From positions 1 to 55,966 of the forward strand of contig JAPKYJ010000018.1 in NCBI GenBank assembly GCA_026394375.1: 55,966 nucleotides of DNA. The letters run 5' to 3'. Below, piece after piece: positions 291-15,571 of this stretch. A program made the position numbers and the translations under genes. Below the pieces are notes generated by a model. It made no database searches and was not told the origin of the DNA. It worked only from the letters and a program-made list of their open reading frames with translations. This DNA comes from Methanomassiliicoccales archaeon. Lineage in GTDB: Archaea; Thermoplasmatota; Thermoplasmata; Methanomassiliicoccales; UBA472. The first letter of the stretch is position 1. The number at the start of each line of letters is the position of its first letter.

Positions 291-1994
291 ATGACCCGGA
301 CCATTGAGACGGACGTCCTCGTGATAGGGGGCGGTGGAGCAGGGCTCCGCGCGGCGATCGAAGCAGCCAGGCAGAATGCTCGCGTTCTGATCGTTGCCCG
401 TTCGGTGCTAGGCAAGGCTCACACCACCATGGCCGAGGGAGGGGTGAACGCGGCATTGGGCAACCGCGACCCGGAGGATTCGGTGGAATCGCATTTCCGG
501 GATACGGTGGTGGAGGGTGCATTCCTCAACGACCAGCGTCTGGTGAAGATCCTGGTGGAGCAGATCGCCGATCGCGTCTACGACCTAGAGGAGTTCGGGG
601 CGGTGTTCGACCGAACCCCCGAGGGTGGGATCGCGCAGCGGTCGTTCGGAGGGCAAAGCCACCCTCGCACCTGCTACGTCGGAGACGAGACCGGTCACGA
701 GATGATAATGTCCCTGGTGGAGGAGGTCCGCCGCAGACATATCCGGCACATGGACGAATTCATGATCACCCGGTTGTTCCGAGATGAGACGCGCTGTTCC
801 GGAGCCTTTGGCATCGAGATGAGCTCCGGCGAATACCTGCTGTTCCGCTCCAAAGCGATCGTGTTGTCCTCTGGCGGAGCGGGGAGCCTGTACAAGGTGA
901 CCTCCAATCCTGACGAGGCGAACGGGGACGGATACGCCATGGCCTATGACATAGGAGCCGAACTCATGGACATGGAGCAAGTACAGTTCCATCCCACGGG
1001 CATGGTCTATCCCGATGCGGTAAGGGGCATCCTTGTGACTGAGGCAGTTAGAGGGGAGGGCGGACTGCTCAAGAACTCTCTGGGGGAGAGATTCATGGGG
1101 CGATACAGTCCGGTCCAGATGGAGCTCTCGCCCCGCGACGTGGTCGCCAGGGCGATCTACTCTGAGATCCAGGCCGGCCGAGGGACGGAAAGGGGGGGCG
1201 TCTACCTGGACATCACGCACAAAGACCCAGAGACCGTGCGAAGGAAGCTCCCGCGCATGGTCAAGCAGTTCCAGACCTTTGCTGACCTGGACATCACCAA
1301 GGCGCCTATGGAGGTCGCGCCTACAGCGCATCATTTCATGGGTGGGGTCAAGATTAGGCCGGAGGACAACCGCTCAACTACCGTCGCAGGTCTATACCTG
1401 GCAGGCGAGGTGGAGGGGGGAGTGCACGGTGGCAACCGCCTGGGAGGAAACGCGCTCGCGGAAACGCAGGTCTTCGGTGCGCGCGCTGGTCTCTATGCGG
1501 CGCAGTACGCCAAACAGATCGGCATGGTCCACATCGACCCTGGTGAGGTCATGGGGGAGGCAGAGCGACTGGATTCCATGTTCCGTTCGGGTGAGAGGCC
1601 CCAAGCCCTGCGGCAGAACATCCGACGCATGATGTGGGACCTTGTTGGCATAGTCCGCAACGAGAAGGACCTAGCGCAGGCGCTGGAAGAAATCCGTTCC
1701 ATGCAAAGGAAGGCTCAAGAGGTAGGGGTCTCAGGAGGCAAGCGCTACAATCCCGAGTGGTATGACGCCATCGCTCTCGGGCACATGCTGGTGGTGGCCG
1801 AGGCCATCATCCTGTCGGCCCTGACGAGAAAGGAGAGCCGAGGGGCGCACTTCCGTTCCGATCATCCGCGCCGGGACGACCAGAATTGGTTCGTCAACCT
1901 TAACCTGATCAAAGGAGAAGACGGAGGTATGAAGGTCTTCTCCACTCCCATCCAGGCAGAGAGTATGCGTCCAGAGGAGGCCAGAGAGGAATGA
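291..1994 (+). CDS. tfrA: Thiol:fumarate reductase flavoprotein subunit (TfrA-like)
   Basis: This is the catalytic FAD subunit of the succinate dehydrogenase/fumarate reductase family. In methanogens TfrAB reduces fumarate with coenzyme M and coenzyme B as electron donors, giving succinate and the heterodisulfide. An N-terminal dinucleotide fold (VLVIGGGGAGLRAA) is followed by family motifs HTTMAEGGVNAALG, QFHPTGMVYP, RGEGG, HFMGGVKI and GNRLGGNALAE, and by the usual C-terminal helical domain. At 567 residues it is a typical length. The ATG at 291 follows GAGGTCGG and is where family members begin. It shares an ATGA overlap with tfrB, whose HdrB-like half makes the thiol-dependent enzyme more likely than a membrane succinate dehydrogenase; no membrane-anchor genes are present. 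The family is certain; the natural electron donor is inferred from the partner. Confidence 0.92.
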   Translation: MTRTIETDVLVIGGGGAGLRAAIEAARQNARVLIVARSVLGKAHTTMAEGGVNAALGNRDPEDSVESHFRDTVVEGAFLNDQRLVKILVEQIADRVYDLEEFGAVFDRTPEGGIAQRSFGGQSHPRTCYVGDETGHEMIMSLVEEVRRRHIRHMDEFMITRLFRDETRCSGAFGIEMSSGEYLLFRSKAIVLSSGGAGSLYKVTSNPDEANGDGYAMAYDIGAELMDMEQVQFHPTGMVYPDAVRGILVTEAVRGEGGLLKNSLGERFMGRYSPVQMELSPRDVVARAIYSEIQAGRGTERGGVYLDITHKDPETVRRKLPRMVKQFQTFADLDITKAPMEVAPTAHHFMGGVKIRPEDNRSTTVAGLYLAGEVEGGVHGGNRLGGNALAETQVFGARAGLYAAQYAKQIGMVHIDPGEVMGEAERLDSMFRSGERPQALRQNIRRMMWDLVGIVRNEKDLAQALEEIRSMQRKAQEVGVSGGKRYNPEWYDAIALGHMLVVAEAIILSALTRKESRGAHFRSDHPRRDDQNWFVNLNLIKGEDGGMKVFSTPIQAESMRPEEAREE

Positions 1995-3535
1995 ACGACC
2001 AGGTCATCCGGTTCAGAGTCTTCCGCTTTGACCCGGCGGTGGACGAGGAGCCCCATTACGATAACTATGATGTCCCGTACGTGCCAAAGATGCGCATCCT
2101 GGACGCGCTCAATTACATTCACGAGCACCTCGATGGCTCGCTCTCCTATCGCTACATGTGCCGTGCCAGTCAGTGCGGTTCCTGCACGTTGACGGTCAAC
2201 GGACGACCAGGGCCGGCATGCAAGACCGAGGTGCCAATCGATGGCAAGGAAGTGGTGGTGGAGCCTCTACGGATCTTCCCGGTCATCAAGGACCTGGTCA
2301 CGGATATGGAGCGAGGTTACAGCCGGTTCGAGGCCGCCAGACCGTATGTGGAACGGCCCTCCAGACCCTCCAGGCCGGAGGTGGTGAAGGCGGAGGAGAT
2401 AGAGGAGCTCAAACCCCTCCGCTCCTGCATCGAATGCTGGTCCTGCGTGGCCATCTGCCCGGTGGTGAACGAGATCTCCGACGAGTACCTTGGCCCGATG
2501 GGCATGCGTAAGCTGGCCGAGCTCTCACTGGACAAGCGGGATATACTGGACCGCACGAGCATGGCTTTGGTGGAAGGCGTCTACAACTGCACCACCTGCA
2601 AGAACTGCTGGGCGGTGTGCCCGCAGGAGATCCGCGTGCCGGAGAAGGCCATCGAGAAGCTGCGCGCCATGGCCATCAAAAAGGGGCTGGCCCCGCTTCC
2701 TCCGCACAAAGTGGCCATCGCCTCCATCCGCAACTATTGGAACCCGTGGATGGCACCGCGAGCACAGAGGGCGCGTTGGGCGAGGCCCTTGGACCTACCG
2801 GAGAAAGGCGAGACCATGTTCTTCGCTGGCTGCTCTCCCTCTCTGCTCAAGCAGAACTTGGCGGTGGGGACGGTGAAGATACTCAAGCACCTGGGTGAGG
2901 ACGTGGGCTATCTGAGCAAGGAGGAGAGGTGCTGTTCGTCGCCCCTTCTGAGGGTCGGGGAGACAGCCCTCTTCGAGGAGATGGCCAAGGCCAACATCGA
3001 GGCAATGAGGAAAGCGGGGGCGAAGAGGGTGGTGGTCACCTGCGCCGGCTGCTACAAGGCCTGGAAGGAGGACTATCGCGATCATTTCGGGGAGCTGGGG
3101 TTCGAGGTCCTCCATATCTCCGAGGTCATAGAGAGAGCGCTGAAGGAAGGGGGGATCAAGCTCAAGGAGGCCGAAGTCAATCAATGCACGATCACCTACC
3201 ACGACCCTTGTCATCTTGGCCGTGCTGGAGGAGTGTACGAAGCCCCGCGTTTCGTCCTGACCTCCGTTCCAGGCATTAAGCTGGTGGAGATGGAACGCAA
3301 TCGGGAGAACAGTGCCTGTTGTGGCTCTGGAGGGGGAGTGAAGACCGCTCGTCCCTCGCTGTCGACCACCATCGGTTCCACCAGGTTGAGGATGGTCCAG
3401 GCTACCAGGGCGGACGAAGTGGTCTCGTGCTGTCCCTGGTGCGAGCAGAACCTGGAGGACAGCATCAAGGCGGGAGGATATCCTGCCTGGAGGGTGCGCG
3501 ACCTCGTGGACATCGTCTCAGCGGCGCTGGAGTGA
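1991..3535 (+). CDS. tfrB: Thiol:fumarate reductase iron-sulfur/CCG subunit (TfrB-like)
   Basis: This fusion joins an SdhB-type iron-sulfur module to an HdrB-like thiol-oxidising module. The first 100 residues carry a plant-type 2Fe-2S site (CRASQCGSC, then a further Cys). Two 4Fe-4S motifs follow, CIECWSCVAICP and CTTCKNCWAVCP. From about residue 270 there are two CCG domains, each with a Cys, a CC pair and a CxxC: GCSPS/RCCSS/CAGC and DPCHLG/ACCGSGGG/CCPWC. In HdrB such domains bind the noncubane 4Fe-4S clusters where CoM-SH and CoB-SH are oxidised. At 514 residues the fusion is complete. It overlaps tfrA by an ATGA and ends 5 bases before RNase III. The C-terminal half, including an NYWNPWMAPRA linker, strongly resembles that of the LUD fusion at 35691-37712. 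Confidence 0.92.
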   Translation: MNDQVIRFRVFRFDPAVDEEPHYDNYDVPYVPKMRILDALNYIHEHLDGSLSYRYMCRASQCGSCTLTVNGRPGPACKTEVPIDGKEVVVEPLRIFPVIKDLVTDMERGYSRFEAARPYVERPSRPSRPEVVKAEEIEELKPLRSCIECWSCVAICPVVNEISDEYLGPMGMRKLAELSLDKRDILDRTSMALVEGVYNCTTCKNCWAVCPQEIRVPEKAIEKLRAMAIKKGLAPLPPHKVAIASIRNYWNPWMAPRAQRARWARPLDLPEKGETMFFAGCSPSLLKQNLAVGTVKILKHLGEDVGYLSKEERCCSSPLLRVGETALFEEMAKANIEAMRKAGAKRVVVTCAGCYKAWKEDYRDHFGELGFEVLHISEVIERALKEGGIKLKEAEVNQCTITYHDPCHLGRAGGVYEAPRFVLTSVPGIKLVEMERNRENSACCGSGGGVKTARPSLSTTIGSTRLRMVQATRADEVVSCCPWCEQNLEDSIKAGGYPAWRVRDLVDIVSAALE

Positions 3536-7192: not shown

Positions 7193-7380
7193 TTCTTTCC
7201 CTCCATCCTAATAGCGCCCACGGGGCACAGCTTGACGCAGCGGCCGCAGCGGTTGCAGGCGTCGCTGAATGCCAGCAGCACCTCGGCCAAGTAGATGGCG
7301 TTCTGGGGGCAGGAACCGACGCAAGCCCCACAATGCATGCACTTCTCATTGTTGACCTTCGCCCAGGTCGCCTCGCTCAT
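7189..7380 (-). CDS. Small 2[4Fe-4S] ferredoxin
   Basis: A 63-residue dicluster ferredoxin with two classical motifs, CMHCGACVGSCP at 14-25 and CNRCGRCVKLCP at 42-53. The ATG at 7380 overlaps the stop of the radical SAM gene (ATGA), and its own stop overlaps the next start in the same way, so the three proteins are translationally coupled. A longer reading frame exists upstream, but only inside the radical SAM gene. Lying between a radical SAM enzyme and a geranylgeranyl reductase, both of which need low-potential electrons, it probably serves one or both. The partner assignment is inferred from position. Confidence 0.93.
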   Translation of the reverse strand: MSEATWAKVNNEKCMHCGACVGSCPQNAIYLAEVLLAFSDACNRCGRCVKLCPVGAIRMEGKK

Positions 7381-8927
7381 GTATATTCCGCCCCTCTGGT
7401 CTTGCGCCACTCCTCCAATGGCACGGAAAACTTCTTCTCGATCTCCGTGCGGTACGTCGGGCCGCTGTTGTAGGCGCAGAAGGGGATGATGCGGTTGTCC
7501 GGCGTGGTGTAATGGATGGCACACCTCTTGACCCGCTCGATATCGTAGTTGTAGCCATCCTGGAAATGCATACCCCCTACGAACATCATGTTCCAGGAGA
7601 ACTCCGACAAGCTCTTCTTCGACGAATCACCGAGCACGGTATTCATCATCTGCAGGAACTTGACCAAATCCAGTCCTTCCGGAGCTTTGTCTTTGTCGAC
7701 GTACTTCTTCAGGATGTTGAATGCCTTAACTTTCTGGGGGAATTTGACCTTGGCCTTGTCCGCTTTCAGCGAGAGGGCGTAGAGCTCCTTGAAGAGAGGT
7801 TCCACGTCCACGAACCTTGTGAGCGGAATGATGTGGTCCTGGTCCTGGACGAAAAGGTACGTGGCCAAGCCGCAGTGCGGGTGGGTGGTGAAAGTGACCT
7901 TCGACTCTCCTAATAGTGCCGAGATCAAGGTGGACACTGGCACTACCGACGGCACAGGGTAAAAGTCCGCTTTGGTCACCTTGCCGGTCTGCTTCTCCAG
8001 GTCCTTCACCAGGTCGGGAAGGGTATAGCGCTGCTTGGCCCTCTCATCCTGGTCGATGCGGCCCGTGAATGCCACCGGCTGATAGTTGATGCCTCTGATG
8101 ACATCTATGTTCTCCACGGCATAGCGGAATATCTCGCCCACCTGATCGTCGTTGATGCCTTTGACGATGGTCGGCACGAGCACGATGGAGGGCTTCTTCT
8201 GGAGCTTGCGCACGTTCTCGATGACCTTCTTCTTCGTTTCCACGAGGGGTGCGCCGCGCGAGGCCATGTAGATATCATCGGTCAGACCGTCGAACTGCAG
8301 GTAGATGGTGTTCAAGCCTGCGTCCACCGCCTCTCTCAGGAATTCTGGCTCCTTGGCGAAACGGATGCCGTTGCTGGCGGCCTGGATCTGGGAGAAGCCT
8401 AGCTCCTTCGCCTTCTTGATGACGTCCACGAAGCGGGGGTAGATGGTCGGCTCACCGCCAGAGAACTGCACCGCCGGGGTCGGGACCGGGCGTTCCTCGC
8501 GCAGCATGGTGAGCATTTTCGCAACTTGTTCGTAACTCGGCTCGTAGACGTAGCCGGCGGCGTTCGCGTTGGCAAAACAGATGGGGCACTTGAGGTTACA
8601 GCGATTGGTGAGGTCGACGTTGGCCAGGGCGGTATGGGACAGATGCAATTGGCATAACCCACATTCGTTCGGGCAGACCTTGGCGTTGGGGATGGCCGGG
8701 TTCTCTACCCCTATACCGTCATAAGCGAAGTTCTCCGCCTTCAGGTACATCTCGACGTCGGACCAGTAGACGTCCGTGGTCTTACCATGCTCCGGGCAGC
8801 TCTTCTCGATCATCACCTTGCCATCCCTCTCATAGAGCGAGGCGATGATGATCTTCTTGCACTCTGGACAGAGAGACCCCGTCTTCTTGGGGAGCCCTTT
8901 CTGGAGACCGCTCTCTTTCGCGATCAT
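7377..8927 (-). CDS. tes: Radical SAM enzyme, probable tetraether lipid synthase (Tes-like)
   Basis: A 516-residue radical SAM protein. The radical SAM cluster motif is CNLKCPIC (C110, C114, C117), followed by SGGEPTIYP near residue 155. The N-terminal part carries more cysteines, CPEC at 20-23, SCPEHG at 43-48 and CPNECGLC at 85-92, which fit extra metal sites. This arrangement and length match the Tes family (MJ0619-like), which joins two archaeol lipids tail to tail to make membrane-spanning tetraethers. The ATG at 8927 lies about 35 bases after a TATA element. The operon with a ferredoxin and an isoprenoid reductase supports a lipid role. A related MJ0619-type methylase is the main alternative; the assignment comes from motifs and context, not from a comparison I could run. 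Confidence 0.8.
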   Translation of the reverse strand: MIAKESGLQKGLPKKTGSLCPECKKIIIASLYERDGKVMIEKSCPEHGKTTDVYWSDVEMYLKAENFAYDGIGVENPAIPNAKVCPNECGLCQLHLSHTALANVDLTNRCNLKCPICFANANAAGYVYEPSYEQVAKMLTMLREERPVPTPAVQFSGGEPTIYPRFVDVIKKAKELGFSQIQAASNGIRFAKEPEFLREAVDAGLNTIYLQFDGLTDDIYMASRGAPLVETKKKVIENVRKLQKKPSIVLVPTIVKGINDDQVGEIFRYAVENIDVIRGINYQPVAFTGRIDQDERAKQRYTLPDLVKDLEKQTGKVTKADFYPVPSVVPVSTLISALLGESKVTFTTHPHCGLATYLFVQDQDHIIPLTRFVDVEPLFKELYALSLKADKAKVKFPQKVKAFNILKKYVDKDKAPEGLDLVKFLQMMNTVLGDSSKKSLSEFSWNMMFVGGMHFQDGYNYDIERVKRCAIHYTTPDNRIIPFCAYNSGPTYRTEIEKKFSVPLEEWRKTRGAEYT

Positions 8928-8963
8928 CTTTGTGACACCTTGGACGTTGGTAAAACCAGTGAA

Positions 8964-8996
8964 GATTTAATACTATTGTAGCTATAGGCGCTACAA
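8964..8996. promoter_or_regulatory. Shared divergent promoter with perfect inverted-repeat operator
   Basis: The 77-base gap between the tetraether synthase-like gene (leftward) and the TrmB-type regulator gene (rightward) holds one AT-rich core, GATTTAATACT. It reads as a TATA element on both strands (minus-strand form TATTAAATC). Next to it, 8976-8996 is a perfect inverted repeat: TTGTAGC, seven bases, GCTACAA. It lies between the core and the regulator start at 9005, and directly upstream of the core for the leftward operon. That position suits autorepression of the regulator and control of the lipid operon by the same protein. Confidence 0.65.
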
Positions 8997-9004
8997 ATGA
9001 TAGA

Positions 9005-9763
9005 ATGAATCTCATCGATGTTCTCAGTCTGGACCTCGATTCGATCGGGGAAGAATACAATAAAATCGCAGCGATCCTAAGCAAGATAGGTCTATCCGAC
9101 TACGAATCCAAGGCCTACGTGGCGCTCATCGCCAAGAACCACGCCACGGCGGAGGAGATTGCGGAGCTGGCAAGAATACCGAGGACCTCGGCGTACAAAG
9201 CGCTCCAGTCGCTCAAGGAGAAGAGGTTCGTGACGCTCACCGAGGGAAGGCCGGCGATATTCCACGCCATTCCGATCGAGGAGACAAGGGAGTCCGTTCT
9301 CGAAGAGATCAAGGACACGTTCGATAAGTTGCACATGATCCAAGGAATGCTGAGCGAGAGGGGCACGCCTCAACTCGTCTACACGATATCTGGAAGGAAG
9401 GGTGTGCTTTCTAAGATCGGGGAGATGCTCGATTCAGCCACCCGCAGTTTCATCATCTCCACTCCGGTGATGGCGGAGATCAGGAATGAGCATGCGCAAC
9501 GCTTCCGGGACGCGGTCAAGCGGGGGGTGGAGGTGGTGATCATCGCCGAGCCTTCGGTCAAGATGCCGGAAAGCACCCGCGTCCACCGGAGAAAAGACCT
9601 CCTGGCGACGGACGTCATAAGCGATGGACGCACAGCCATGATAGCTTCTCCCGACCTATCACTTTGTGGCTATTCTGACAACCCCTTCATCTCTTCCCAC
9701 CTGGAGAATTTCATCCGCATGTCGGTGGAGAGGCTAGAGAAAGAGGAAGAGCGGAAGGCCTGA
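9005..9763 (+). CDS. TrmB-family transcription regulator
   Basis: A 252-residue regulator. Residues 15-80 form a TrmB-type winged helix (SKIGLSDYESKAYVALI, then ATAEEIAELARIPRTSAYKA, the recognition helix region). A helical linker (about 95-120) and a C-terminal effector domain follow, with a phospholipase D-like fold typical of the family (RSFIISTPVMAEIR, VEVVIIAEPSV). The ATG at 9005 lies 8 bases after the inverted repeat, so the transcript is probably leaderless or nearly so. It is divergent from the tetraether synthase-like operon, with the operator in between, which makes that operon its likely target. Many TrmB proteins sense sugars; the ligand here is unknown. Confidence 0.88.
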   Translation: MNLIDVLSLDLDSIGEEYNKIAAILSKIGLSDYESKAYVALIAKNHATAEEIAELARIPRTSAYKALQSLKEKRFVTLTEGRPAIFHAIPIEETRESVLEEIKDTFDKLHMIQGMLSERGTPQLVYTISGRKGVLSKIGEMLDSATRSFIISTPVMAEIRNEHAQRFRDAVKRGVEVVIIAEPSVKMPESTRVHRRKDLLATDVISDGRTAMIASPDLSLCGYSDNPFISSHLENFIRMSVERLEKEEERKA

Positions 9764-9881: not shown

Positions 9882-12800
9882 ATGAGGCGCATTTCCTTCT
9901 TTACCAGGCGTGGAACCTTTCTCAGTGGGGCAGATCGCAGCCGACTCGGTCAGATGTCCTTCGCCCTTGCCGCCGTGCTCATCATGGTGCTCGCGGGGGC
10001 CAGCGTGGCTGTTCTTTCGAGCATCGAGGATCACGAGCAGAGTTCGCGGGATTTGGACGCCTACCTCGAAGGCATGCTCCGAATGGCGGAGGAAGAGCGA
10101 ATGGTCCTGGAAAGGAAAGCGTACGCGGAAGCCCTGCGCACGGTCCAGAGCAATCCCTTGGCGAACGAGAGCACGTTGGGTTCGCTTTTCGAGGCAAGTT
10201 GGGACGAACGACTGCGGGTGGATTATCCCAGGCATTCTTCCTCTTTCTCTTTGGACGTGCAGCGGAACTCCGTCGCCTTATCGTTCCTCCGTCTGAGCGC
10301 TGGCGAGGTGACCCAATGGGGGCAGAGCGGAGGCGGGACCGCTCAGCTGACCAATGTCACGATACCCTCCTACTTGACGGTCACCGGCAACGTCACTTTC
10401 AACGTATCCTGCGGGAACGGATACTTGTTGAAGACGGAGGACATGGACAGTCGTCTGTACCTGCCAGTGCCCCTGCTGCAGAACCGCTTGGAGGCGTTCG
10501 CCTCTGCCGTCAGCGGCGACAAGAACCACTTCGAGAACATCGTGCGATACGAGCTCTCTGCCCTGGTACAGAAGCGGGCGCTGGCTCGTTTGGACCGATT
10601 TGGCCTTTGCTCTCCCACTGCTCTCCTGACAGAACAGGACGTAGAGAACGCTGTCAACCTGGCCGTGGTGCTGGAGGAGGTGCGACTCTTCCGCAACTAC
10701 GATCTCTCCAACACATTTTCCATACTAGCAGGAATGGCCTCCTCCGAGGAGGCGCTGCAGCTGGCGGAGCGGACGCTCGCATCTCGTGGTCAACTGGACC
10801 CGGCCGACCTCTTCCTTTCCCTTCTTGGGGAGGACCAGTTGGACACGAGGACCGTTGTCGCGCAGAGCTTGTTCGCCGCCGCCGATGGCTTGGTGCTCAG
10901 GTGGTTGGACTACCTGCACGTGATGGACCTGGGGCGCTTCCTGGAAGGGGCAGTGGAAAGCGTCCAGCTTACGATATCGAACGTGCTCAGCGCGCTGTTC
11001 GGGGGCGACCCGACGAATGAGCTCGCCTTGGATTGGATGCGAAAGCGCTTGGACGCCGCTGGTGTTCCCGAGAGCGAGTATCGTTACCTCAACTGTGGTT
11101 CCCCGGATTTTCTCATTGAGATACCTCACCGCACCATCTCCGTACTGAACGACGACGGAGAGACCGTGTTGTTTGAGCTAGAGGGGCTCCAGGAACTGGA
11201 TTTCCCATCCCTCGACCTTATCTCCTCGCCGGAATGGCGTTCGTTCTACGTTGACTACAAGGCCAGCACCTTCGAGATGGGGGAGGCGCTGGAGCAATTC
11301 GTCAAGAGCGTTGCCATGGGCGTGGCAGAGAACCTGGACCTGGAGCAAGTGGGGCTCAGGCTCGATCCCATGGACCAGGAATGTTTCCTTTCTGAGCTGG
11401 ATGAGGCGCTTGAAGGTGCGCTGAGCGCAGGGAATGGTTGGCTGGATCTAGCCGTGGCCAAGGCATCCCACGCCCAGCGACTGCACGACGGCATGGCGCT
11501 CGCCTTCGTCACGTTCGTTTCCTCCCGCTGGATGGAGATATTCCAGGCCAACCGTTCGGTCAATTGGGCGCTTTCAAAGATGGCATACCAGCTGGCCAAC
11601 GACTCCCTGGCAGGAGAGGGGTTCGGGCCGGAGGCGCTGAAGGCAGCCGGCCAAAGCATCGCTTGGGACATGGTGCTGGACACATCCTGGGGGATCAGAG
11701 AAACGGCCATGGAGGCCTTCTATCGGAGAGTGGAGGGGCGCATTCAACTGTTCGATGCCGTCTTCAGCAACGTGACCATAGATGGTCATGGATTCTCCCT
11801 CAACGATGCCGTGGTGCGCCTGGCCTTGGGCGCGATAGGCATGGTGCCCGGAGCGGGGGAAGTGGTGCGACGTCTTGCCATGCGGATGATCGACGACCTG
11901 GAACAAGGCAGCCGCCTACGCGGTGATAAGGTGACGATAGCGCTGCACGGCCTCGGGCCTCTGCCTTTGCGCCTGGAGAACGAGGTGGTGGCCAAGGAAG
12001 AACTGCTGCCCCAAGTGCAAATGCCTTGGACGACGGGGGATGGGCTGCTCGAAGTGAGCATCAAGTACCCATTCCAGTACGCCCGTGAGGCGGAGGACTA
12101 CCCCAACCGTCGTGTCACCGACCTGAACAACCTCACCCTCTGCCCCTTCCAGAGTCAGTTCGAGGTGGCGGTCAGAGGGCAGCTCCAACTGACGCTTGGC
12201 TGTTCTGGCGAGCTCTCGTCCATTGCCGGTGGCTCACCTCAGGCAAGCGCCAACGTGCCATTCGATTTCCGTTTCGGGCTCTGCACCAGCAGCGGGTGGC
12301 CCTTGGACGGAGTGGACTACCGGCCCACGATGACCGCCCTCAAGCAGATGGAACAGGTCTTCCAGGCCATATGGGATGGCATCGTGGGTGCGCTCCAATG
12401 GGCCTGGGATGGGATCAACTCCATCTTCTCCTTCCTCCAGGATGTGGTGTCGACCGTACTCTCCTACGCGATGCAGGCGGTTCAGTGGTTGTCGGACCTG
12501 GTGACGCAGGTGGTCCAAGGGATCAAGGACATCCTGGAAAGCGGTTTCTCCTCCTTCGCCGAATGGCTGGGTCGGACGGTCACCGACACGGTGGGCAAGA
12601 TCAAGGTGTCCTTCAGCCTGCTTGGCATCCAGTTCCTCTTGGAGACGGATGTTAACGACATCCCCTATGGCCGGAGCCGAGACTATCTTCGTTTGACAGG
12701 TACCGTGGACTTGGGTGGCACCAAGCTAAGCCTGACCATGCGTGTAGCCAGCATCTACAAGAAAGGCACGGACATCGTCTTCAACAGCACCATGTTGGGA

Positions 12801-14156
12801 GATGGTTGGGTGGCCAAGGGCACGTTCGATCCGCTCATGATCGTTTGCGACCACCTCTTCGAGCTGGTCGGGTCTTTCCCCAGCTTCGTGATCGAGCTCT
12901 GCATGCCCAAGATCGTGCAGTACGATGTCCTGCGGTTCTCCCTGGCGGACGTGCCAGGCATCGGTGCTTTCCTGTCCCGCATCCCCCTTCCCATTCCCGG
13001 CCTCACGGGTTCCATCGACGCTGGCTTCGAGCTCAAATACAACCGTCCGATCAATGACCACGTGGTCATAAACGAGGTGGAGCTCAATCCTCAGGGTGCC
13101 GATGCTGGAAGGGAATGGGTCGAGCTCTACAATCCATCTGCCATGGACGTGGAGGTCTCCGGCTGGTATCTGGAGACCTCGCACGGCTCGCAGGAAGTGG
13201 ATGCCATCGAGGACGAGGTCATTCCTCCGCGGGGCTATCTGGTGCACGTGTTCCCGAAATTGATGCTGGACAACGGAGGTGAGCACGACGCCCCGCTGGG
13301 TGAATCTGTGGTGCTCCGGGATGCCTCTGGCACCAAGGTCGATTCCACTCAGTTCCTCACCGACTACTACGGCGATGGTCGCACCTGGCAGAGGAAGACC
13401 GACGGAGCGGAGAGCTGGACGTTCAAGGATGGGACCCGGGGCAGCAGGAACCACTTCCAGACGGTGGTGATGAACGACCGCGATGTGATGATGCATGCTC
13501 TGGGGGAGGCAGCCCTGCGAGCTTTCGGCCGCTTCGCCAGTGCCAACGCATTCAGCCTGGATTCGCTTGCCAGTCTGATCACCGGCGTGATCAAGGAAGT
13601 GCTGGACACGGTGATCGACATTCTGGCCGATGCGGTGGTGGAGATGGGCCTGTTCTTGGAACTTAAGCTGCAGGACTGCACTCAGAGCTTCAGCGGTTCC
13701 CTGCGTCTCAGCCTCTTGGTCACGGGTGACTTCGTGAGGGAGGGGCTGCAATGGATCGCCGACGCGGTCCGTTCTGCCCTATGCGGTTTCGCCAACCCGG
13801 CTGCCGCGATGCCGAAGGCGCACTCTCTGGACGAGTTGCTGGATGATGTGTACATTCGGTTTGGAGCCTACGGTCAGGCGGGGCTTCCCCGCATCCTAGG
13901 TTCGATTGGCGATGGGGTCAAGTTCAGCTTCGGCGGGCAGATCCAGGTGAACCTTGCTGCATTCATCCCTCCTAGGCACGGACCTCAGAACTGGAGCGTG
14001 GTCTTCGGGGTCTTATTCGAGGGCATCGATGGGCGCTACCTGAGCACGCTCTTCAACACAGATGCGGACAAACTGGTGGACTGCTGGGTGTTGTGGGCTT
14101 CACTGCATGCCAACGGGCAGAACCAGGGGAACGCGATCGAGGTGAGGGGCATGTGA
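9882..14156 (+). CDS. Giant exported protein with lamin-tail domain
   Basis: A 1424-residue protein of unknown function. Near residue 25 the sequence RSRLGQMSFALAAVLIMVLA resembles an archaeal type IV pilin-like or TadE-like leader: basic residues, then G-Q, then one hydrophobic helix. The remainder would lie outside the membrane. A long helical part follows. A strongly amphipathic, tryptophan-rich stretch covers about 822-905 (AIWDGIVGALQWAWDGINS and similar). A lamin-tail domain covers about 1063-1195 (VVINEVELNPQG, REWVELYNPS, GRTWQRKTDG). No enzyme motif was seen. The ATG at 9882 has no clear Shine-Dalgarno sequence. It precedes an MscS channel and an antiporter on the same strand, suggesting a cell-envelope region. 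It may be an envelope scaffold or pilus-associated protein; I am unsure. Confidence 0.85.
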   Translation: MRRISFFTRRGTFLSGADRSRLGQMSFALAAVLIMVLAGASVAVLSSIEDHEQSSRDLDAYLEGMLRMAEEERMVLERKAYAEALRTVQSNPLANESTLGSLFEASWDERLRVDYPRHSSSFSLDVQRNSVALSFLRLSAGEVTQWGQSGGGTAQLTNVTIPSYLTVTGNVTFNVSCGNGYLLKTEDMDSRLYLPVPLLQNRLEAFASAVSGDKNHFENIVRYELSALVQKRALARLDRFGLCSPTALLTEQDVENAVNLAVVLEEVRLFRNYDLSNTFSILAGMASSEEALQLAERTLASRGQLDPADLFLSLLGEDQLDTRTVVAQSLFAAADGLVLRWLDYLHVMDLGRFLEGAVESVQLTISNVLSALFGGDPTNELALDWMRKRLDAAGVPESEYRYLNCGSPDFLIEIPHRTISVLNDDGETVLFELEGLQELDFPSLDLISSPEWRSFYVDYKASTFEMGEALEQFVKSVAMGVAENLDLEQVGLRLDPMDQECFLSELDEALEGALSAGNGWLDLAVAKASHAQRLHDGMALAFVTFVSSRWMEIFQANRSVNWALSKMAYQLANDSLAGEGFGPEALKAAGQSIAWDMVLDTSWGIRETAMEAFYRRVEGRIQLFDAVFSNVTIDGHGFSLNDAVVRLALGAIGMVPGAGEVVRRLAMRMIDDLEQGSRLRGDKVTIALHGLGPLPLRLENEVVAKEELLPQVQMPWTTGDGLLEVSIKYPFQYAREAEDYPNRRVTDLNNLTLCPFQSQFEVAVRGQLQLTLGCSGELSSIAGGSPQASANVPFDFRFGLCTSSGWPLDGVDYRPTMTALKQMEQVFQAIWDGIVGALQWAWDGINSIFSFLQDVVSTVLSYAMQAVQWLSDLVTQVVQGIKDILESGFSSFAEWLGRTVTDTVGKIKVSFSLLGIQFLLETDVNDIPYGRSRDYLRLTGTVDLGGTKLSLTMRVASIYKKGTDIVFNSTMLGDGWVAKGTFDPLMIVCDHLFELVGSFPSFVIELCMPKIVQYDVLRFSLADVPGIGAFLSRIPLPIPGLTGSIDAGFELKYNRPINDHVVINEVELNPQGADAGREWVELYNPSAMDVEVSGWYLETSHGSQEVDAIEDEVIPPRGYLVHVFPKLMLDNGGEHDAPLGESVVLRDASGTKVDSTQFLTDYYGDGRTWQRKTDGAESWTFKDGTRGSRNHFQTVVMNDRDVMMHALGEAALRAFGRFASANAFSLDSLASLITGVIKEVLDTVIDILADAVVEMGLFLELKLQDCTQSFSGSLRLSLLVTGDFVREGLQWIADAVRSALCGFANPAAAMPKAHSLDELLDDVYIRFGAYGQAGLPRILGSIGDGVKFSFGGQIQVNLAAFIPPRHGPQNWSVVFGVLFEGIDGRYLSTLFNTDADKLVDCWVLWASLHANGQNQGNAIEVRGM

Positions 14157-14236: not shown

Positions 14237-15571
14237 GTGGCATCATTGGAGCAGTCCCTACCCGTGGCCGCTGATTCGTCCACGTGGCTGGCAGACTACG
14301 GCTGGGCGATCCTGCTATTCCTCATCTTGCTGGTCATATCCCTCTATCTCTGGTCTTATCTGTCCAAGAACCTGGAGCAGCTCAAGGTCAAGGAGTCGGA
14401 CTACACGGACGACGAGGTGATCACCTACCTGGGTCGCATGGTGAAGGTGGTCCTCGTTATCATCCTGGTGTTCGTGGCCCTGTTCGTCACTGCCCAGGTA
14501 TGGCAGGAATTCAGAACCGAGGTCTGGGACAAATACCTCGGCTACTTGCTGGACATAGTCTTCATCAGTATCGTCCTCCTGGTGGCCATGCTCATCGTCC
14601 GGGTGCTTCGTCGGGTATCGCGCAGGGCCCGAATGACCAAGAAGGACGTTCACGCTCTACACGGGAGCGCCATCGAGTTCACCTCCCTGCTCCTAAGCTA
14701 CGTGGTCTATGTGACCGCCGCCGGCCTCATCCTCCTGGTGCTCATCTCGTTCGTGCCGAATCTGGAGCCTTTGAAGGGGTTGCGCGACTTCCTGGACAGC
14801 AACGTGACCAAGATCGGCTCCACCATCATCCTCGTGCTCGCCATATTCGCAGTGGTGAAGCTGGTGGGGGCGATCTTCGAGGACTACAAGTTCCGAACCA
14901 AGAAGTTCAACCCCCAGGTCATAGACCTGTTCAACGACCTGGTGAGGTATGTGTTATATATCATCGCTTTCTTCACGGCCGTCTTCATGTTGTTCTCCAT
15001 GGCGGGACTGGAGTCGGTGGGCTTCCTCCTCGTCATCGTCACGCTCTTGTTCGTGTCATTGGGCATCGCCATGTCCTACACCACCATCCGCAATATCGTG
15101 TCTGGGCTGGCGTTGATGAACAGCGACCCCTTCGATATCGGCGACCGGGTGAAGCTGGGCAAGGACCTGGTCTGTGAAGTGGTGGAGAAGAACCTGGTGT
15201 TCACTCGAGTCCGCACCGAGGACGGGGAGACGGTGGAGGTGCCCAACAGCCAGATAATCAGCGGAACGATTCTGAACTTCAGTCGTTCCGGATCGCATGG
15301 GCTATCGGTCAGACTGGAGCTGCCGTCATCGATATCGCACAGCGTTGTGGAGGACATCATTGCCAAGGCAGTGACCCGGGAGGAAGGGCTGATGAAGGAA
15401 CCTAAGCCCGAGATCTTCGCACGGGAGTTCCGGGGCGATAAGATATCCTACGAGGTCATCGTCTATGTCAAGGATTCCATGAGGACCAAGCGGGTCCGGT
15501 CCGACCTCATCATCAACATACAGGACGCCTTCGAGGCCGCGGGTTTGAGAGGTCTCGGTGGCGAGAAGTGA
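14237..15571 (+). CDS. MscS-type mechanosensitive channel
   Basis: A 444-residue membrane protein of the small-conductance mechanosensitive channel family, which releases solutes when the membrane is stretched. Four to five hydrophobic helices occupy about residues 15-260. The pore-lining and beta-domain region follows at about 255-345 with family features: GLESVGFLLVIVTLLFVSLG, NIVSGLAL, DPFDIGDRV and VPNSQIISGTILNFSRS. The C-terminal alpha-beta domain is complete. The GTG start is supported by a TATA element at leaderless distance. It lies 80 bases after the lamin-tail protein and 75 bases before a cation/proton antiporter, which suggests an osmotic and ion balance cluster. Confidence 0.9.
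   Translation: MASLEQSLPVAADSSTWLADYGWAILLFLILLVISLYLWSYLSKNLEQLKVKESDYTDDEVITYLGRMVKVVLVIILVFVALFVTAQVWQEFRTEVWDKYLGYLLDIVFISIVLLVAMLIVRVLRRVSRRARMTKKDVHALHGSAIEFTSLLLSYVVYVTAAGLILLVLISFVPNLEPLKGLRDFLDSNVTKIGSTIILVLAIFAVVKLVGAIFEDYKFRTKKFNPQVIDLFNDLVRYVLYIIAFFTAVFMLFSMAGLESVGFLLVIVTLLFVSLGIAMSYTTIRNIVSGLALMNSDPFDIGDRVKLGKDLVCEVVEKNLVFTRVRTEDGETVEVPNSQIISGTILNFSRSGSHGLSVRLELPSSISHSVVEDIIAKAVTREEGLMKEPKPEIFAREFRGDKISYEVIVYVKDSMRTKRVRSDLIINIQDAFEAAGLRGLGGEK

Follow-up and report, generated by a model that had tools for sequence, protein, structure and literature searches.

A giant pilin-like protein with a lamin-tail domain, probably a subunit of a divergent type IV pilus-like machine of Methanomassiliicoccales

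The window analysed here is a 55,966-nucleotide stretch (contig JAPKYJ010000018.1, assembly GCA_026394375.1) from an archaeon of the order Methanomassiliicoccales, which are methanogens, some of them living in the animal gut. Our subject is a gene of the window for a protein of 1424 amino acids (hereafter the giant protein; Table 1). An initial annotation made from the sequence had described this protein as carrying a pilin-like leader, a long helical ectodomain, an amphipathic Trp-rich belt and a lamin-tail domain (LTD). The open frame is real, and the gene is present in one copy in the 1.73-Mb genome to which the window belongs. The sole match of the giant protein in a Pfam scan was the LTD (residues 1059–1156), and a scan of NCBIfam gave no match. 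The analysis presented below indicates that this protein is probably a subunit of a type IV pilus-like machine.

Table 1. Positions in the window of the gene for the giant protein, its parts and two adjacent genes.
Feature	Positions	Strand	Evidence
Giant protein of 1424 aa, pilin-like, distantly related to DUF7286 and carrying an LTD	9882..14156	+	Open reading frame, homologue and profile comparisons
Class III (prepilin-type) leader, residues 1–23, predicted A24 peptidase cleavage after Gly23	9882..9950	+	Homologue conservation, A24 gene elsewhere in genome
Region homologous to DUF7286 proteins from other classes of Thermoplasmata's phylum Thermoplasmatota, residues 15–351	9924..10934	+	hhalign probability 97.6%, E 3.6e-12
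Long helix at the N-terminus of the mature chain as predicted, residues 24–90; start membrane-spanning, no acidic residue at the Glu5 position	9951..10151	+	AlphaFold2 of N-terminal half, residue count
Antiparallel beta-sheet after the long helix, residues 117–192, pilin-like order of elements	10230..10457	+	AlphaFold2 of N-terminal half
Amphipathic helices, residues 821–903	12342..12590	+	AlphaFold2 of C-terminal half, hydrophobic moment
LTD (Ig-like), residues 1059–1183, with segments that rank among the best conserved of the protein	13056..13430	+	Pfam, fold match, conservation
C-terminal helices, then antiparallel strands, residues 1199–1410; order resembles the helices and sheet at 821–1053	13476..14111	+	AlphaFold2 of C-terminal half
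TrmB-like regulator; conserved neighbour that persists on loss of the giant gene, not a member of the system	9005..9763	+	Domain scan, synteny of 41 loci, deletion sites
MscS-type channel; adjoins the giant gene in some families only, not a member of the system	14237..15571	+	Domain scan, synteny of 41 loci, deletion sites

Leader, predicted structure and conservation

Relatives were surveyed in 150 genomes of Methanomassiliicoccales, and conservation and synteny were counted in 41 aligned homologues or loci. A homologue of the giant protein was matched in 141 of the 150 relatives (72 of 76 among the good-quality genomes), with full-length copies in most of them. In a scan of genome contigs, the single protein gave nothing and a query made from an alignment succeeded. 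The leader and stretches of the LTD are among the most conserved parts of the chain.

The pilin-like leader was upheld by this comparison. Residue 23, the predicted cleavage site, is Gly or Ala in all 41 homologues; the motif [R/K]x[G/A]-[QN]-M-P-F is conserved, and [QN]-M-P-F-[AS] is the usual follow-on after residue 23 (Met at position 25 in 37 homologues, Phe at 27 in 39, Ala at 31 in 40). The giant protein thus has the mark of type IV pilin-like proteins, a class III leader that ends in Gly or Ala at −1 and leads into a hydrophobic helix. None of the 41 homologues has an acidic residue in the first 20 positions of the hydrophobic stretch, and the giant protein accordingly has none at the Glu5 position, whereas the two small pilin-like partners described below have a conserved acidic residue early in theirs. 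The class III pattern check suggested in the initial annotation stood in its looser FlaFind-type form (39/41 homologues) and not in the strict form (15/41). Hence, the leader assignment is based on conservation and not on the pattern.

The chain was modelled with AlphaFold2 in two halves. The N-terminal half (alignment of 71 sequences) reached a predicted local distance difference test score (pLDDT) of 85.7 and was long and mostly helical, as proposed for the ectodomain; an unbroken helix at residues 24–90 is followed by a short helix, the antiparallel sheet and then a large helical region. In the block of the sheet the pLDDT is mostly above 90, except for a loop around model residues 121–140. 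This predicted order, from long helix to antiparallel sheet, fits a pilin, but the fold search gave no significant match to a solved structure. In the C-terminal half (mean pLDDT 77) the predicted order is amphipathic helices, a beta region, the LTD, helices and beta strands. The helical moments at residues 821–903 lie at the 87th–98th percentile of the chain, and the amphipathic character noted earlier for residues 822–905 is thus retained; its description as Trp-rich is not, since five Trp in 85 residues are matched by 60% of shuffled chains. The fold search of the C-terminal half also matched outer-membrane barrels, but at low probability and with a template modelling score of about 0.1, and these matches were treated as noise from long strands. 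Searching the sequences of solved structures with the giant protein returned mostly designed helical bundles and long-helix proteins.

The LTD, previously placed near residues 1063–1195, was confirmed by Pfam (PF00932, 42.8 bits against a curated cut-off of 34.3) and by Foldseek, with a probability of 1.00 to the Ig domains of lamin B1 and lamin A/C (3jt0, 3umn, 3gef, 1ifr). PF00932 also matches in 32 of 32 aligned homologues, with E up to 0.1. The long coiled-coil rod that precedes the tail of nuclear lamins is not seen in the model; the giant protein is predicted to consist of mixed helical and beta domains behind an N-terminal membrane helix. In secreted bacterial and archaeal proteins such as the ExeM-type nucleases, the Ig-like LTD is likewise an extracellular accessory module; in the giant protein it lies within a pilin-like scaffold, and no nuclease domain was found.

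DUF7286 kinship, small pilins and co-loss with the ATPase/TadC genes

The leader motif and the N-terminal ~340 residues are alike in the giant protein and in the DUF7286 family (PF23957), which has matches in Haloferax volcanii and Methanosarcina acetivorans. Direct PF23957 matches were found in 8 of 32 homologues and were weak (best E 1.4e-4). The giant protein differs from DUF7286 proteins in having the LTD and no Pfam-level match, and the rest of its chain cannot be aligned to the proteins of other classes; the comparison of its family profile with giants of the same class gave 100% (E 5.8e-46, 882 columns). In other Thermoplasmatota, the DUF7286 proteins come last in a contiguous cassette, in the order small DUF7285-like pilin, second small pilin, giant. 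One genome (G187) has two opposite-facing giant DUF7286-like genes (L126:5072-9607 and L126:10031-14635), and each of them has a small pilin-like gene close by. Haloarchaeal neighbourhoods were sought among plasmids, with no result.

Homologues of both small pilin genes are present in the genome of the window on another contig (C24), near a T2SSE ATPase/TadC-like operon. The ATPase of this operon matches T2SSE with E 2.8e-16, and the TadC-like gene is too divergent for any Pfam match and was recognised by a home-made profile. A homologue of the A24 peptidase that has the two candidate catalytic Asp positions was detected in 141 of the 150 relatives, again by a home-made profile, which was used because PF01478 alone under-detects this peptidase (17/61). 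The copy in the genome of the window lies at C22:43611-44486. That family f2 keeps A24 without TadC was considered and rejected, the TadC of f2 being merely too divergent for Pfam. The T2SSE ATPase, a TadC-like partner, an A24 peptidase and class III leaders are shared with the euryarchaeal type IV pili built from PilB/TadC and PilA pilins (PMC4858521), from which this machine differs in its highly divergent TadC and its giant subunit.

The divergent TadC was found in 136 of the 150 relatives. Both it and the giant protein are present in 134 genomes and neither in seven, with seven genomes having the giant protein only and two TadC only (Fisher p 3.8e-7, uncorrected for relatedness). Among the nine genomes without the giant protein, the two that keep the divergent TadC are 63–68% complete. 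The seven genomes that lack both, as well as G013, have no DUF7285-like pilin, and of 11 other genomes checked, every one with the giant protein, 10 have it. In G035 and G038 a canonical T2SSF/TadC pair and A24 are kept, and the giant protein, the divergent TadC and the DUF7285-like pilin are gone, which indicates the loss of one specific machine and not of pili generally. In the near-complete genome G026, both TadC types and the A24 peptidase are absent. The initial annotation had suggested a look for pilus genes, and this look was fruitful: the ATPase/TadC operon, which is co-lost with the giant gene, the small pilins and the A24 peptidase were all found.

The loss of the giant gene is a clean deletion within a contig, with the flanks kept, in G026, G035, G038, G053 and G069. 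The sites closed over the missing gene read reductase-Tes-TrmB followed by the downstream genes in G026, G035 and G038, Tes-TrmB-MscS in G053 and Tes-GTPase-PolII in G069. These closed sites indicate that neither the MscS channel nor the TrmB-like regulator is tied to the giant protein.

Several further features accompany these genes. The genome of the window has a second, canonical type IV pilus locus on contig C27 (G000, L115:4883-11274) with a pilin-like gene, two ATPase-like genes and two T2SSF genes. In most of the order, a U32-peptidase-like gene (L208:13026-15137 and equivalents) stands between the ATPase/TadC operon and the small pilins; this putative name was taken, by appearance, from the start of the relatives, MEILAPAGSPEG. 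Directly upstream of the ATPase lies a gene for a Cys-rich protein of 175–206 aa of no known family (L208:12512-13114). In some relatives, in-frame TAG codons occur within the genes for the giant protein, A24 and TadC (G041:C3:166938-171062; G060:C1:205674-206459 and 889991-891364). Methanomassiliicoccales are known for pyrrolysine readthrough, and these codons could be read in this way.

A probable subunit of a pilus-like machine and the alternatives

We consider it likely that Methanomassiliicoccales have a dedicated archaeal machine of type IV pilus-like kind and that the giant protein is its giant pilin-like subunit. This is drawn from the conservation of the leader, the homology to DUF7286, the synteny of the three-gene pilin cassette in sister lineages, the co-loss with the ATPase/TadC set, the wide presence of the A24 peptidase and the predicted N-terminal helix and sheet, and membership of such a machine is well supported by genomics. 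The former orphan, said in the initial annotation to match no nameable system, would then be the giant component of an unusual variant of a machine whose kind is known.

Several results weigh against this assignment. The giant gene stands outside the ATPase/TadC operon in Methanomassiliicoccales, and no TadC was detected in seven of the genomes with the giant protein, which are for the most part incomplete or fragmented. The p value ignores phylogeny, and the independent co-losses number about three at most, perhaps two (genera g12, part of g18, and g26). The protein of the window, with Leu at −2, does not fit the strict form of the FlaFind pattern, and it has no direct PF23957 match (Pfam cut-off 27 bits). 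The structure prediction proposed in the initial annotation, which gave a fold match for the LTD, gave no significant one for the N-terminal half, for which Foldseek returned no confident match to any solved pilin. Tip position and adhesion, finally, are taken from analogy.

In the proposed mechanism, the chain would be inserted with the leader on the cytoplasmic side and, we infer, cut after Gly/Ala23 by the A24 prepilin peptidase. The divergent T2SSE ATPase, paired with the TadC-like protein, would then handle the hydrophobic helix, and the two small pilin-like subunits, one of them DUF7285-like, would take part alongside. With no Glu5-type residue and an extramembrane part of well over 1,000 residues, the giant protein would most likely sit at the tip as a priming or adhesive subunit and show its LTD head to an external ligand. 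The analogue is GspK, the large tip pseudopilin that works with two smaller pilin-type partners and caps the GspIJK complex of type II secretion (PMC4471445). The likeness is one of analogy, with no sequence relation shown, and the giant protein has a far larger ectodomain and the LTD. The lack of a Glu5-type charge, together with a large head that would block addition above it, makes a GspK-like part, at the tip or in priming, the most economical guess. Filament assembly, tip position and adhesion are putative, and the tip or adhesin role, taken by itself, is put forward tentatively.

Alternatively, the giant protein could be part of the same machine and not enter a filament. It would then remain anchored in the membrane and span the space below the S-layer, where it would serve the pilus, or a type II-like pseudopilus for substrate export, as a scaffold or passage. 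The absence of an obvious major pilin beside the operon in Methanomassiliicoccales, a length of 1,400 aa that is unusual for a filament subunit, and the long helices and broad beta-sheets predicted would all suit such an arrangement. We nevertheless regard it as unlikely, because the position of the leader and the uncharged hydrophobic helix are those of pilin-type subunits that enter filaments, and the muramidase carried on the same scaffold in relatives (see below) suggests outward presentation.

The distance between the giant gene and the operon in Methanomassiliicoccales, and the small size of some genomes with the loss (G145, G146), would also fit a stand-alone surface protein, either an adhesin or an S-layer-associated protein, with the leader as a mere anchor and the co-occurrence due to genome reduction that removes surface genes in general. 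This is very improbable, since the giant gene adjoins the small pilin genes in sister lineages and G035 and G038 lose exactly the giant/TadC/DUF7285 set yet keep the other T2SSF pair and A24.

The role first suggested, in envelope mechanics or osmotic response alongside the MscS channel and the antiporter downstream, is hardly credible: MscS lies on the same strand and adjacent in the genome of the window, but the proposed co-occurrence with homologues is not conserved, as MscS adjoins the giant gene in 14 of 41 loci and in 0 of 20 in the large family f2, and is kept in G053, where the giant gene is deleted. The genes that commonly follow in f2 are those of a GTPase and the large subunit of DNA polymerase II.

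The lipid-gene side of the giant gene is stable across the 41 loci. Its neighbours in the window include the genes of tetraether lipid synthase (Tes), an archaeal lipid reductase and mevalonate kinase, and these, like the named relatives in the database, point to Methanomassiliicoccales or a nearby lineage. The gene of the TrmB-like regulator is placed divergently beside that of Tes (7377–9763), is kept where the giant gene is lost and may be a regulator of Tes. Thiol:fumarate reductase-like genes (TfrA and TfrB) lie at 291–3535.

Differing domains on the scaffold and biological meaning

In some relatives, a GH25 muramidase domain is fused to the giant scaffold. In G345 (L123:5000-9757) it lies inside the giant protein (residues 829–1005, E 2.8e-48), and in G370 (L263:4044-8864) and G373 (L262:3345-8156) at its C-terminus (residues 1406–1583, E 1.2e-51, and 1403–1580, E 2.8e-51, respectively). 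That the latter two were separate downstream genes was rejected, the domain sitting at the C-terminus of the giant protein itself. A second giant copy of G373 has no GH25, and in G181 and G213, of a related family, GH25 occurs in a separate frame of 574–630 aa. The protein of the window has no GH25. A muramidase of this family from Aciduliprofundum boonei kills bacteria (PMC4241558). The two positions of GH25 suggest that the scaffold presents differing extracellular domains; these seem to be exchangeable, with the LTD as the one of Methanomassiliicoccales. Giant-headed type IV pilus-like machines throughout Thermoplasmatota, with a pilin-like tip of 900–1,600 residues whose exchangeable head would be an adhesive LTD in Methanomassiliicoccales and a GH25 muramidase in certain relatives, and with pili that would bind or attack nearby bacteria on contact, are a doubtful extension of these observations.

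A 2016 census of archaeal type IV pili by Makarova et al. listed three Thermoplasmatales species, with Methanomassiliicoccus named, as having no secretion ATPase, and the words "lamin" and "giant" do not appear in its main text (PMC4858521). In our survey most Methanomassiliicoccales have the ATPase/TadC pair. As several genomes lack the divergent pair, and G026 lacks both TadC types and A24, the census and the present survey can both hold, for different species. An order partly listed as ATPase-less in 2016 thus mostly encodes a divergent pilus-like machine.

With these results, a 1,400-residue protein that had no assigned function and is near-universal in an order of methanogens gains a definite context, and a role for its lamin-tail domain becomes testable. 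A giant pilin-like scaffold with exchangeable extracellular domains, in relatives a muramidase among them, would be an unusual archaeal way to touch or attack other cells.

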